Source: an uncultured bacterium
GTDB lineage: Bacteria > Bacillota > Clostridia > Lachnospirales > Lachnospiraceae
Direction of reading: 5' to 3'
Length of the DNA: 64,000 nt
Assembly (NCBI GenBank): GCA_947381965.1
Contig: CANCXX010000002.1
Coordinates: forward strand, 83,548 to 147,547
Part shown: piece by piece, positions 12,064 through 64,000 of the stretch
How positions within the stretch are numbered: the stretch's first letter is position 1
Layout of the letters: the number at the start of each line of letters is the position of its first letter
Translations under genes and position numbers: made by a program
Notes under the pieces: generated by a model
The model's database searches: none
What the model was told of the DNA's origin: nothing
What the model saw: only the letters and a program-made list of their open reading frames with translations

Positions 12064-12076
12064 AATTTTCCTCCTG

Positions 12077-12145
12077 TTCCAGTTCCGCGCTCTTTGGGTC
12101 ATTCGCTGTTTCCAGTTCCGCTTCCTCCCAGGCCGGACTCTGTTT
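12077..12145 (-). repeat. Intercistronic hairpin repeat, two short units (5' of ridA)
   Basis: Two units with a period of 33 bp. On the mRNA (minus) strand each begins with CAG and ends CGGAACTGGAA. The unit nearest ridA folds as CAGCG...CG with a bulged CGGAA and then CTG. The last unit runs straight into the ridA SD. It fills most of the gap between the 82-residue gene and ridA. The same motif recurs upstream of guaB, dapL, a GT4 gene and the ANTAR gene. Confidence 0.7.

Positions 12146-28089: not shown

Positions 28090-28090
<1 letters not shown>
27874..28090. mobile_element. 217-bp palindromic miniature element at the guaB stop codon
   Basis: The ends are inverted copies of ATAGGTAATTGCGAAAC, and a second inverted block ATATTCTGACAAT follows a less conserved stretch. 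Inside, TGCACC/GGTGCA, ATCAAG/CTTGAT and GAAGACAG/CTGTCTTC continue the pairing to the centre, so the whole element is one long imperfect hairpin. A perfect 9-bp direct repeat, TATTCGTCT, flanks it (27865-27873 and 28091-28099), as expected of a target-site duplication. It has no coding capacity. The last element base supplies the final A of the guaB TAA stop. Confidence 0.85.
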
Positions 28091-29683
<1,593 letters not shown>

Positions 29684-45255: not shown

Positions 45256-46470
45256 TTATAATGCTTTAATTCTGTCCACAGCTTCCACCGTATTTTCGTA
45301 ACTGCCAAACGCGGTCAGCCTGAAATAAGTTTCGCCGCTTGGTCCAAAACCTGAACCGGGCGTTCCCACTACATTCGCCTTTTCCAGAAGATAATCAAAG
45401 AACTCCCAGCTTGTCATCCGTCCCGGCGCTTTCAGCCATATATAAGGTGCATTTACCCCTCCCGACACTTCATAGCCTGCGTCTTTTAAGCCCTCCAAAA
45501 TATATTTTGCATTATTCATATAATAAGCAACCTGTTCCTTTAACTGGGCTTTTCCCTCTTTGGAATATACTGCTTCCCCGGCCCGCTGCACAATGTAAGG
45601 CGCACCATTGTATTTGGTGCCGTGCCTTCTTGCCCACAGGGAATGAAGGGCTACTTCCCCACATTTTAAATCCTTGGGAATTACAGTAAAGCCAAGGCGC
45701 ACGCCTGTAAACCCGGCGTTCTTTGAAAAGGAGCGCAGTTCAATGGCGCAGGTTCTTGCGCCTTCACATTCATAAATGGAATGGGGCACATCAGACTCGG
45801 AAATATAGGCTTCATAGGCGGCATCATAAATAATAACAGCTCCCACCCTGTTTGCATAATCCACCCACTCTTTTAGCTGATCCTTTGTGATTGTTGAGCC
45901 GGTTGGATTATTGGGGAAGCACAGGTAAATCAGATCTGGTGTTTCTTTCGGAAGTTCAGGTGCAAAATTGTGTTCTGCCGTACATGGCATGTAAATTACA
46001 TCACTCCAGGTTTCCGCTGCGCTGTCATAAACACCGGTTCTGCCTGCCATAACGTTTGTATCCACATATACAGGATATACCGGATCGCAGACAGCAATCT
46101 TATTATCTGTACTAAAAATCTCCTGAATATTTCCAGAGTCACACTTAGCTCCGTCAGATATAAAAATTTCATCTGCTGAAATTTCACATCCTCTGGCTTT
46201 ATAATCATTTTCAGCTATGGCATTCCTTAAAAACTCATAGCCCAAATCCGGCGCATACCCTTTAAAGGTTTCCGCTTTTGACATCTCGTCCACGGCCCCA
46301 TGAAGGGCATTTATAATTGCCGGAACCAGAGGCTGGGTCACATCCCCGATTCCCAGACGTATAATTTTCTTGTCCGGGTGCGCCGCTGCATAAGCATTGA
46401 CCTTCTTTCCTATTGTTGAAAATAAATAACTGCCAGGCAGCTTCAAATAATTCTCATTAATTTTAAACAT
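45256..46470 (-). CDS. dapL: LL-diaminopimelate aminotransferase
   Basis: Encodes 404 residues of a fold-type I PLP enzyme. It opens [17 protein letters not shown] and has the PLP lysine in [14 protein letters not shown] near residue 247, with substrate-loop sequences characteristic of DapL. It converts tetrahydrodipicolinate directly to LL-diaminopimelate, bypassing the succinyl and acetyl branches, for lysine and peptidoglycan synthesis. dapF is upstream in the same operon, separated by tandem hairpin repeats whose end abuts the dapL SD. Confidence 0.96.
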
Positions 46471-46481
46471 TTTTCCTCCTA

Positions 46482-46715
46482 TTCCAGTTCCGTAATTGTC
46501 CTTCTGGCGCCAAAACCTACAAAGGAAAATCAGCCTGCTTTGCTGTCTGCTTTTCCTCTGGGCACCATTCAGACAATTACTGTTTCCAGTTCCGTAATTG
46601 TCCTTCTGGCGCCAAAACCTACAGAGAAAAATCAGCCTGCTTTGCTGTCTGCTTTTCCTCTGGGCACCATTCGGACAATTACTGATTCCAGTTCCGTAAT
46701 TGTCCTTCTGGCGCG
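46482..46715 (-). repeat. Tandem 102-bp intercistronic hairpin repeats between dapF and dapL
   Basis: Two nearly identical full units (46482-46583, 46584-46685) and a partial third (46686-46715). Each folds: GTAATTGTCC pairs with GGACAATTAC, GGCGCC with GGCACC (one wobble), and AGGAAAA with TTTTCCT. In the mRNA sense each is bounded by CAG and CGGAACTGGAAT, and the last abuts the dapL SD AGGAGG. The partial unit meets the dapF stop. Confidence 0.85.
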
Positions 46716-46721
46716 TTTATT

Positions 46722-47564
46722 TTAATCTATTGTTATTTCACCTTCGAAAACGGTAACGGCAGGACCAGTCATGTAAATCAGATTTTCCTTCCGGTCCCAC
46801 AGTATCTTTAAGCTTCCTCCTGATAGTTTGACAGTAACTTCTTCCTTCGTCAGGCCGTTTAACACGCATGCTGCCACAACTGCACAGGCGCCTGTCCCAC
46901 AGGCTAAGGTTTCTCCGGTTCCTCTCTCCCAGACCCGCATTTCCACGTTTTCCCTATCCACTACCTTTACAAATTCTGTGTTAATACGATTGGGAAACCG
47001 CACATGGTTTTCAAAGCATGGGCCAATCTTCTCAAGGGGAAGGTTTTCTATCTCATCCATAAATATAACCGCATGGGGATTGCCCATAGACACACATGTC
47101 ATTGTGTAGGTTTTATCCTCAACCTCAATTCTGTCACCAATGACTTCCTCTTTGTTGGAAATGACAGGGATATCAGCAGCTTTAAATATGGGAGAACCCA
47201 TATTGACTTTAACAGTCGAGACTTTTTCTTCCTCTACGAACAAATCCAAATATTTAATTTTGCCACAACTGATAACACTGATAAAGGTTTTATCTGTCAT
47301 TTTCCTGTCATAAACAAACTTAGCCACACAGCGGATCCCGTTTCCGCACATTTCACCGCGGGAACCATCCATATTGTACATTTCCATTTCAAAATCCGCT
47401 TCTTTTGATTCATTAATGAAAATAACGCCATCCCCGCCGATTCCAAAGTGCCTGTCGCTAAGACGCCTTACGATTTCCGGCTTTTGTTCCATGGATATCT
47501 GCTCTCTTGTTCCGTCCACATAAATATAATCATTGCCGCACCCGTGCATTTTCGTAAATTTCAT
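46722..47564 (-). CDS. dapF: Diaminopimelate epimerase
   Basis: Encodes 280 residues with both catalytic cysteines: MCGNGIRCVAKF near residue 73 and LACGTGACAVVAA near residue 223. It interconverts LL- and meso-diaminopimelate, following DapL in the same pathway. It begins MKFTKMHGCGNDYIYVDG, the usual DapF start. The gap to dapL (about 250 bp) is filled by tandem hairpin repeats, unusual within a two-gene biosynthetic operon. Confidence 0.97.
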   Translation of the reverse strand: MKFTKMHGCGNDYIYVDGTREQISMEQKPEIVRRLSDRHFGIGGDGVIFINESKEADFEMEMYNMDGSRGEMCGNGIRCVAKFVYDRKMTDKTFISVISCGKIKYLDLFVEEEKVSTVKVNMGSPIFKAADIPVISNKEEVIGDRIEVEDKTYTMTCVSMGNPHAVIFMDEIENLPLEKIGPCFENHVRFPNRINTEFVKVVDRENVEMRVWERGTGETLACGTGACAVVAACVLNGLTKEEVTVKLSGGSLKILWDRKENLIYMTGPAVTVFEGEITID

Positions 47565-56063: not shown

Positions 56064-57260
56064 TTATGAGTATACCATATTTCCGTTCCGATTCCCATGA
56101 TTGCGCTTTTGTCTTTCTTTTTCTGCTCTAAGCCGGACCGCCCTTTCATAAACCCAGGCTGCCTGCCGTGCAATCTCTTCACTGCTGTAAAGCCGGGCGG
56201 TTTCCTTTGCCCCTTCCCGCAGGTAATCCAATTCTCTTTTTTCCAGCACATCCATAATCTTAAAGGAAAATTCTTTTTCTGACACGTCTGTCATATACCC
56301 GTTTTTCCCATTAATTACCACATCTTCCGTTCCCGTGGCATGCAGGGCAATGACAGGCGTTCCTGCGGCCATTGACTCAAGCAGTACAATTCCCTGGGTT
56401 TCCGACAAAGATGAAAATAAAAATAAATCAGCTGCATGGCAATAATCTTTAATTTCCCTATTAGGTACCTTTCCCACAAATACGACTTCCTCACAAAGGC
56501 CAAGTTCTTTCGCTTTTTTTTCTATGGTTGACCGATATGGTCCATCCCCCACAAACGCAAGTTTAAAATCACTTCCACAGATATCTTTACGGATTTTCAT
56601 GCTTCTTAAAAGAAACTCCAGATTTTTTTCTTTTGCCAGCCTTGCCACGGTACAAAAAAGGTACTTTTTTTCGCCTGCAAGCTCACTTCTGATTTTTTCC
56701 GCCCTTTCTTTGTCCGGGAAAAAACTGTCCTGTGTAAGACCTGTGGGCAGCACTTTTATATCGCTTTTTAGTTGAATCTGCTCCAGATAATCCTTCATTA
56801 GAGGGGTAGGTGCAATCACCATGTCACAATGTCTGGTACAGTTTCTGATATAGGCCGGAATCAGGCTTTTAAAAGCGGAAAGTCCAATATAATGCAGGTA
56901 CTGTTCATATCTGGTATGGTATGTAAATACCAGCGGCACATGATACTTCCATGACAGATACCTGGCAGCGCTTCCTATCATCATAGGATGGTGGACATGT
57001 ATCACATCAAAATCCCCTTCCCGGAACCTTCTTTCTATTTCCGGGTCAAAACTGTTTGGCACAGAGAAGCCCCCTGCCACCCCCCGTAAAAGAGATTTGT
57101 ATCTTACTACATCCATTTCTCTCTCCTGACCATCATAGCTTGGGGCAAAAACTACTACTTGATGCCCCTGCTCTCTTAAACTATCAGTCAGTCTCTCCAC
57201 TGAAACCGGCACGCCAGCCACAAATGGTTTATAATTATTTGTCATCATTGCAATTTTCAT
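56064..57260 (-). CDS. Glycosyltransferase family 4, glycolipid-type
   Basis: Encodes 398 residues of GT-B fold. The N-terminal MTNNYKPFVAGVPVSVERL and FDVIHVHHPMMIG segments and the C-terminal SETQGIVLLESMAAGTPVIA (the EX7E-like motif) are typical of GT4 enzymes, close to the diacylglycerol glucosyltransferase group. It probably makes a membrane glucolipid from UDP-sugar, though another acceptor is possible. The upstream dedA gene is separated by a double hairpin repeat. The SD is AGGAGAT. Confidence 0.88.
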   Translation of the reverse strand: MKIAMMTNNYKPFVAGVPVSVERLTDSLREQGHQVVVFAPSYDGQEREMDVVRYKSLLRGVAGGFSVPNSFDPEIERRFREGDFDVIHVHHPMMIGSAARYLSWKYHVPLVFTYHTRYEQYLHYIGLSAFKSLIPAYIRNCTRHCDMVIAPTPLMKDYLEQIQLKSDIKVLPTGLTQDSFFPDKERAEKIRSELAGEKKYLFCTVARLAKEKNLEFLLRSMKIRKDICGSDFKLAFVGDGPYRSTIEKKAKELGLCEEVVFVGKVPNREIKDYCHAADLFLFSSLSETQGIVLLESMAAGTPVIALHATGTEDVVINGKNGYMTDVSEKEFSFKIMDVLEKRELDYLREGAKETARLYSSEEIARQAAWVYERAVRLRAEKERQKRNHGNRNGNMVYS

Positions 57261-57273
57261 TCCAGATCTCCTA

Positions 57274-57445
57274 TTCCAGTTCCGCAGCCTCCTCTGCCAG
57301 TGCCTTTTACCTGCAGAACAATTCCTGCCTGTTCCATACCGTAATTGTTCTGCGCACTGTTCGTTCCGGCTGCTGTTTCCAGTTCCGCAGCCTCCTCTGC
57401 CAGTGCCTTTTACCTGCAGTGAGCACTGTTCGTTCCGGCTGCTGT
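57274..57445 (-). repeat. Two intercistronic hairpin repeats between dedA and the GT4 gene
   Basis: Both units are bounded, in the mRNA sense, by CAGCAGCC and GGCTGCGGAACTGG, with an inner CAGTGC/GCACTG stem. The unit next to the GT4 gene carries an extra nested hairpin, CAGAACAATT/AATTGTTCTG, in its loop that the other unit lacks. The proximal CGGAACTGGAATA abuts the SD. The distal unit ends 12 bp from the dedA stop. Confidence 0.82.
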
Positions 57446-57456
57446 TTTAAATATTC

Positions 57457-57966
57457 TTAAACAAAGTAACCAAGAACTACATCTCCAAGAAAGTAACCTG
57501 CACCTACAAATACCAGATTCCAAAGACATATTCCAAGTGTGGAACTGACTGTGTATTTCACCAGATTCATTTTGCATACCCCTGCCGGAATGGAAATCAG
57601 CGTCCTTATCATGGGTATCAGCTTGCTAAGAAAGATACCCACGCTCCCTTTTTCCCTTATCCATTCAAGTTTTTCCTCTATGGCCGGCCTTTGTTTTGGA
57701 AATTTATTCAGGTATTTTTGCAGAAATAGTTCCCCCCCTTTGTAACCCAGCCAGTATAAAATCAAACTTCCTGTCAGGCCAGCTGCCACTGTTATAATCA
57801 GCGCAGGTATAAAGTGGATATTACCCTTCGCCGCCCAAATACCTGCCAGCGGCATTATTACCCCTGCCGGAAATCCAGGGAGATTCATATACTCCAACAA
57901 TACAATCACAAAAATCGCAATACCTCCATATCTTGCAAAATACTGCATAATCACATCCATCGTCAT
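57457..57966 (-). CDS. DedA-family (VTT-domain) membrane protein
   Basis: Encodes 169 residues, shorter than the usual 200 or so, but containing the core. It has four or five membrane segments, the family block LPGFPAGVIMPLAG and the re-entrant motif FLSKLIPMIRTLISIPAG. DedA proteins recycle undecaprenyl phosphate or flip phospholipids. It is upstream of the GT4 gene and is probably co-transcribed with it. A degenerate copy of the hairpin repeat lies 5' of its start. Confidence 0.9.
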   Translation of the reverse strand: MTMDVIMQYFARYGGIAIFVIVLLEYMNLPGFPAGVIMPLAGIWAAKGNIHFIPALIITVAAGLTGSLILYWLGYKGGELFLQKYLNKFPKQRPAIEEKLEWIREKGSVGIFLSKLIPMIRTLISIPAGVCKMNLVKYTVSSTLGICLWNLVFVGAGYFLGDVVLGYFV

Positions 57967-57989
57967 TTCTTACACATCCCTTCATTATT

Positions 57990-58035
57990 TATGGTTCCGT
58001 AACCGCTCTCCTTTGTACTGCAATTACTGTTTTCA
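57990..58035 (-). repeat. Degenerate intercistronic-type hairpin repeat upstream of dedA
   Basis: On the mRNA strand CAGTAA...TTACGGAAC flank a short variable stretch, matching the closing stem and CGGAA bulge of the other repeats, but the terminal CTGGAAT is altered to a CCAT-like end. The rest of the 58036-58236 gap is A/T-rich, with no gene seen. Confidence 0.4.
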
Positions 58036-63932: not shown

Positions 63933-63945
63933 TTTGTCACCTCTA

Positions 63946-64000
63946 TTCCAGTTCCGCATCCGCCCTCTTCAGCTCCTTCTTCCTTCAGAGCAAATCCTGT
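63946..64000 (-). repeat. Intercistronic hairpin repeat upstream of the ANTAR gene (cut by window edge)
   Basis: In the mRNA sense it ends GCGGAACTGGAATA directly before the SD and contains ACAGGATTTGCTCTG, shared with the repeat 5' of guaB. Its other half lies beyond the window. Confidence 0.7.

Follow-up and report, generated by a model that had tools for sequence, protein, structure and literature searches.

A dispersed, lineage-restricted element of about 100 nt is found in the genome of an uncultured bacterium of the Lachnospiraceae, where its copies end at the Shine-Dalgarno (SD) sequence of a downstream gene and point in the direction of that gene. Comparison with relatives indicates that the copies were inserted. 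Single copies also appear to be kept as sense RNA, with selection on the sense-strand fold acting copy by copy, the main evidence being the changes that separate tandem neighbours. On these sequence comparisons we lean towards an RNA module of mobile origin that was inserted and then kept as a cis-acting 5′ leader element of the downstream cistron.

The unit and its place before the SD

The window, a stretch of 64,000 nt from contig CANCXX010000002.1, holds the motif CGGAACTGGAA(T/C)A at 12075, 29556, 46480, 57272 and 63944, each time on the minus strand and fused to an SD and start codon. With up to two mismatches allowed, 15 matches are present in the window against 2.45 expected, and none of 100 shuffles reached 15; the five hairpin loci of the original prediction are thus real. 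The stem sequences it gave are present and its stems stand, but the hairpin extends further than it proposed. The unit is about 100-108 nt long, from AACAGC to GCGGAACUnnAA, and consists of AACAGC, a basal stem (P2/P3), an internal loop, P4 and an apical hairpin (P5), followed by a bulge of 8-9 nt on the 3′ side, the return strands and finally GCGGAACUnnAA. The predicted fold energy of full units is about -25 to -56 kcal/mol.

All features in the window lie on the minus strand. Upstream of ORF 45256..46470, which from its N-terminus we take to be a dapL-like aminotransferase, two full units and the 3′ piece of a third are found. The full unit nearest the SD is at 46480..46582 (G000:C2:130027-130129, G000 being the window's own genome; E 2.5e-17 with our covariance model R1), the second is at 46582..46684 (R1 E 6.9e-18) and has the same stem, GTAATTGTCC/GGACAATTAC, and the ragged third piece, recognised by eye, is at 46685..46713 on the upstream side of the array. 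ORF 28090-29544, presumably guaB-like, is preceded by a full unit at 29556..29661 (R1 E 4.3e-21) with a collapsed mini-unit just upstream of it. Before ORF 56064-57260 there is a full unit at 57272..57375 (R1 E 1.5e-13) in tandem with a shortened one, missing part of the apical hairpin, at 57375..57444 (R1 E 4.8e-5). Collapsed units alone remain at 12075..12130, where two of them (motif matches at 12075 and 12108), absent from the R1 matches, precede an ORF with its ATG at about 12063 that we assume to be RidA-like. The unit before the ORF starting at about 63932 is truncated by the end of the window and contig, leaving its 3′ end (63944..64000, by motif match). The degenerate copy predicted near 57990 was recovered by eye as a collapsed unit, ACAGTAA...GGTTACGGAACC, at 57975..58031, before the SD and ATG of ORF 57457-57966.

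Exact copies of CGGAACTGGAA number 88 in the 4.3 Mb assembly, and the reversed pattern is found once; by eye, some of the 88 are isolated motifs that lie within coding sequence and belong to no unit. Model R1 found 110 units genome-wide among 150 first-look candidates scored, possibly a lower bound, and a broader model, R2, matched 100 of the 107 candidates scored in the same genome. The assembly is a draft of 92 contigs with 7.3% contamination in which contigs C14 and C44 duplicate some loci; as these two contigs carry near-identical arrays and flanks, the draft probably mixes strains.

The 110 units fall into 76 arrays, and the 75 with context comprise 47 with one, 22 with two and 6 with three full units. 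Within arrays the tandem period is 100-110 nt, and copies at one locus usually share their stem sequence. Median identity is 0.95 for the 46 unit pairs within one stretch and 0.58 for the 5207 pairs from different stretches. Just one of these 5207 exceeds 90% identity, joining two contig ends that are possibly one locus, and with so few highly similar copies at different loci nothing points to a recent burst here. The arrays are fixed at their 3′ end and mostly ragged at the 5′ end: in 54 of 74, a further unit ends no more than 22 nt before the first full one. For most arrays the distance to an upstream ORF on the same strand is at most 100 nt, an operon-like placement.

The original prediction of a single orientation toward the downstream gene, directly against its SD, holds throughout this genome and in other genomes (see below). 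Under a rule that called for a same-sense ORF of at least 60 codons, or one open at the contig end, and left the SD aside, a start codon and ORF follow all 65 judgeable arrays of the 75 with context, and in 60 of the 65 the start codon is 9-17 nt past the last model base. A stricter rule that includes the SD is passed by 64 of the 65 and by 369 of 4440 positions drawn at random from these loci, so that position and orientation relative to genes are not random. The sole failure, C43:26498, has an ATG without a recognised SD. The remaining 10 arrays are all near contig ends; two of them, on C27 and C53, are followed by about 50 nt of nearly identical non-SD sequence, AGTCCAGCTAA.AAATGTCAATAG, and may be exceptions to the SD rule. 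Going by the names we would give them, the downstream genes presumably serve core metabolism, translation, transport and regulation, and they appear functionally unrelated.

Selection on the sense-strand fold

The suggestion that selection acts on RNA structure is strongly supported by covariation, by an excess of G-U pairs and by the changes between tandem copies. When 27 units from the window's genome were aligned with MAFFT in the ordinary way, without fitting to the structure, 84 double-change cells were counted against 27.9 (sd 4.8) after shuffling. A larger alignment of 142 distinct sequences, which is model-fitted and leans toward the structure, gave 1339 against 414, and sliding the partners destroyed the signal. 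The number of pairs with double changes was no better than chance in the large alignment (29 against 28.0; 156 of 500 shuffles), and in the small one it was 19, with 20 reached by a slide of one column. Cell counts and the covariation score do discriminate the fold from the controls.

Four helices covary strongly. The 3-bp CAG/CTG base, for which the original prediction had named a lack of covariation as grounds for refutation, is not among them: among the units of the window's genome it is intact in 97.5% of cells and shows no double change, and across genomes two of its pairs hardly vary and the outermost fails to pair in 57 of 141 sequences. The constancy of the 3′ motif in the cross-genome set stems largely from the patterns used for the search; the constancy of the 5′ CAGC does not.

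The strand on which the fold is maintained can be read from the mismatches. With the outer three pairs left out of the count, paired positions read on the sense strand hold 168 G-U against 31 A-C combinations, the shuffled expectation being 424 and 360; restricted to the window's own genome, the counts are 113 and 24. Purine-purine mismatches also far outnumber pyrimidine mismatches at paired positions.

Tandem neighbours were compared in 47 pairs, at least 85% identical, from 38 loci, in alignments that were fitted to the model and with pairs that are not fully independent. Among these, 43 single changes alter a Watson-Crick pair, 29 of them producing G-U, 6 A-C and 8 other combinations; 15 further changes are without any Watson-Crick state. 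With the proportion of transitions in unpaired columns taken as a simple yardstick, about 23% G-U would be expected (nominal p 1e-9). The excess is seen in both kinds of transition, with 17 C>T changes giving G-U against 4 G>A changes giving A-C, and 12 A>G against 2 T>C. In unpaired columns, moreover, A/G change is commoner than C/T change. Given this, a simple mutational strand bias is not the explanation. Paired columns change at about half the rate of unpaired ones (0.025 against 0.047). Same-sense single-stranded DNA could lie behind part of the G-U pattern, and selection between tandem copies could be partly older than their arrival.

Distribution and origin of the copies

In a species collection, a search with the tandem pattern returned at least 117 stretches, of which 14 were unrelated and removed by eye, leaving 103. 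The 70 titled stretches are labelled Lachnospiraceae, Acetatifactor muris DSM 23669, Blautia, Lachnoclostridium or, more broadly, Clostridia or bacterium. Among the matches listed, the SD starts 1-2 nt past the unit in 82 of the 103 loci, and an automatic test for SD, start codon and ORF was passed by 90 of 98 judgeable arrays against 314 of 4120 random positions. The eight failures include arrays that continue into more units or have a start codon without a recognised SD; one, L214, has no clear gene. At another locus, L146, short tandem repeats of the terminal motif alone, GCGGAACTGGAATCAAA, stand before the SD, as if the hairpins had collapsed to their base.

Within the window's genus, 9 of 37 genomes, its own included, carry the element by model R2, with 100, 56, 54, 29, 25, 18, 10, 6 and 1 matches. 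In a sample of the family, 7 of 299 genomes do, again counting its own; here 13 candidates were scored per genome under stricter filters, which makes both counts and absences less sure. None of 12 genomes from other families of the same order has an R1 match. The 46482 array has no match in phages and plasmids, and the one viral contig that matches the 18-base end pattern lacks a surrounding unit by eye.

Orthologues of 19 downstream genes, from 61 usable loci, were sought in three carriers (G001, G002 and G046) and two non-carriers (G030 and G008). The gene names, which we assigned from N-termini, are presumptive. Orthologues were found for 18 of the 19, mutS2 having no match in the five relatives, and 80 stretches were fetched. 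Most are empty and by eye still have an SD, which shows that the copies were inserted. The cleanest empty site is argF, where the flank is conserved up to an insertion point directly before GGAGG. Clear R2 units are at dapB in G001, gltD in G002 and purF in G046, and weak R2 matches at tyrS and guaB in G046, where collapsed remnants were also recognised by eye at dapL, purH and hom. In the 31 stretches from the two non-carriers, R2 found no unit.

The original prediction had considered a mobile repeat that brings its own SD. Insertion is borne out, but the empty orthologous sites already have an SD, at similar spacing by eye, and a repeat carrying its own SD was rejected. At gltD, dapB and purF, the element of one species does not have its nearest relative at the same gene of the other (ranks 11 to 58 of 89); orthologous descent was rejected for them on this ground, which suggests repeated hits on the same sites and gives no support for long retention at one site. 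A classical MITE has terminal inverted repeats and a target-site duplication; here AACAGC and GCGGAACT, the two ends, do not form inverted repeats by inspection, and a possible TAG duplication is seen at argF and gatA alone. An origin of the stem arms by copying of the local flank was also tried and gave a null result with all units masked (7.140 against 7.132; 523 of 1000 shuffles as high).

Another repeat family, unrelated to this one, likewise stands directly against the SD, with the form GTTTGTGTCTGCGCTGC...CACAAAC...GCAGCGCAGAAAT|GAGG-ATG. It was seen at L152, L197, L206, L220, L316 and L356-L367, with a copy in the window's genome at C77:11956-12012, and a start codon and ORF follow 16 of 17 distinct loci. 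Its loop TCTGCGCTGC is complementary to the 3′ sequence GCAGCGCAGA, and by eye several copies change both sides together; this complementarity makes an H-type pseudoknot likely. The exact pattern is present in 11 of the 37 genomes of the genus, and six loci gave no Rfam match.

Possible roles and related systems

The comparisons show that copies were gained at certain sites, directly 5′ of an SD and in the sense of the gene. Under the reading we favour, the unit would fold in the mRNA into a stable hairpin ending at the SD and would serve the downstream cistron in cis as a 5′ module. The conserved base, ACAGC / GCGG(A/U)ACU, would most likely be a structured handle for an RNA-binding protein or RNase, and the bound handle would set the cleavage, stability or initiation of that cistron. 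Covariation and sense-strand constraint, by which a cis-acting RNA is recognised, are both found. Counted against this role are that most orthologues do without the element, that the downstream genes look unrelated, and that the SD is no more accessible than with a shuffled element. In computed exposure, the real SD scored 0.627 against 0.616 with a dinucleotide-shuffled element (61 loci, p 0.59) and 0.628 against 0.659 with the element removed (53 loci, p 0.22), and insulation or shielding of the SD by the hairpin was rejected because exposure is no better than in the controls. As no partner survived the searches, SD exposure showed no gain and the downstream genes are diverse, a leader module was chosen as the most likely explanation.

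Its main rival is that the element is purely selfish, a non-autonomous mobile sequence with the SD as its target that folds for its own mobilisation, perhaps through an RNA intermediate, with its position reflecting target choice and loss of harmful insertions; we regard this as distinctly less probable. Such an element would account for the patchy presence and empty sites, the fixed 3′ and mostly ragged 5′ ends, the collapsed remnants in G046, the same-gene sites apparently hit repeatedly, and a second repeat family with the same preference. It fits less well with the constraint between neighbouring tandem copies, with the lack of recently dispersed copies in the window's genome, where every judgeable array found by model R1 has a sense start codon downstream, and with the absence of the RVT_1 and Y1 families each from some copy-rich genomes. 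A reverse transcriptase partner was rejected, there being no RVT_1 match in five carriers (G001, G006, G041, G046 and G048). The element may also be a bacterial counterpart of SINEs, its copies made from a concatemeric or circular RNA template, inserted with the 3′ end intact at the SD and later kept by the host as leader modules, which seems to us rather improbable. If true, it would explain why the units of an array are nearly identical, fixed at the end next to the SD and ragged at the 5′ end, and the insertion machinery would be something other than RVT_1 or Y1, or no longer encoded as such.

Hairpin form, high copy number, intergenic location and tandem arrangement would suit a REP-like single-strand DNA hairpin moved by a Y1 (HUH) transposase, but this is very unlikely given that no Y1 match was found in two carriers, G002 (56 copies) and G048 (10 copies), both drafts, on which a Y1 partner was rejected. 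Nor was a unit found at 13 Y1 gene loci, 6 of them from carriers. The excess of G-U over A-C also speaks against it, though same-sense single-stranded DNA could give part of that, and by inspection the unit has no GTAG or CGTC tag. Only slightly less doubtful is an operator for CsrA or a paralogue, with the GGA of the CGGAA bulge and that of the SD as a double site. A CsrA operator requires GGA in the loop; an unpaired GGA does adjoin the SD, but in 9 of 75 arrays the last unit has GGU in its bulge. The protein family is present in 33 of the 37 genomes of the genus, and at least two copies over the cut-off are found in 7 of 9 carriers against 5 of 28 non-carriers, a tally made after two other families had been tried, with several carriers among the larger genomes and genomes that are not independent. 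Carriers G001 and G232 have a single CsrA-family match, and a divergent third type is present in 3 of 15 carriers searched, so that a CsrA paralogue as partner, promising by count, was not upheld by the type-specific search. Least probable of all are transcription attenuators or terminators: the folds are stable enough, but by inspection the unit is followed by an SD and not by a U-run, as the GC-rich hairpin of an intrinsic terminator would be, and most arrays sit as close to the upstream ORF as is usual within operons.

The divergent CsrA-like type is short (60-71 aa) and strong in 3 of 56 genomes searched, all element carriers, at L368 (G000:C25), L371 (G046) and L373 and L374 (G034). At L373 the CsrA-like gene is itself preceded by the 3′ end of the element.

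The original prediction also knew of no described element with this layout, and our searches agree. In the window Rfam 15 gave no match at the gathering threshold, eight loci searched at E up to 1 returned RsmY alone (22.1 bits against a gathering threshold of 57), and no description of the element was found in open-licence PMC papers. Judged by the parts of the papers cited here, the nearest described phenomena found are the TAACTGA repeats of Beggiatoaceae, BOX elements and REPs. The TAACTGA direct repeats of marine Beggiatoaceae are similar in forming dispersed sets, mostly forward, just upstream of start codons, without a functional pattern in the downstream genes, and a translational role has been proposed (PMC4679880). 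They are heptamers with a recognisable SD in about 10% of regions, whereas the element here is a covarying hairpin of about 100 nt ending at the SD. The BOX elements of Streptococcus pneumoniae are likewise interspersed, with a tandem internal module, a predicted RNA fold, a mobile origin and effects on co-transcribed genes, but they are also located between convergent genes, and the portion of the source at hand describes no SD locking (PMC3049150). BOX elements consist of boxA-(boxB)n-boxC modules, and none of these was seen here.

REPs and REPINs, with their RAYT transposases, are high-copy intergenic palindromes that are possibly transcribed; in the sections available they are 20-40 bp long, GTAG/CGTC tagged, mostly downstream of genes and often in opposite orientations (PMC3733652). 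The present units are instead about 104 nt, untagged, upstream of genes and in one orientation, with the base CAGC/GCGGAACT. The processing stem-loops of Clostridium cellulolyticum are also intercistronic and tune cistron abundance, but 27 of 33 were predicted at 3′ processed sites and 6 at 5′ sites, and the source, as far as its available text goes, does not describe them as a repeat family (PMC4423207). As these systems are described there, none combines SD locking, a single orientation and a covarying fold of about 100 nt.

The element is thus a structured repeat at one functional site and in one orientation, with its fold under selection between neighbours. Genomes rich in copies amount to dozens of natural insertions with empty orthologues as controls, a system that lets one test how a mobile sequence may become a leader element and what recognises the SD as a landing site.
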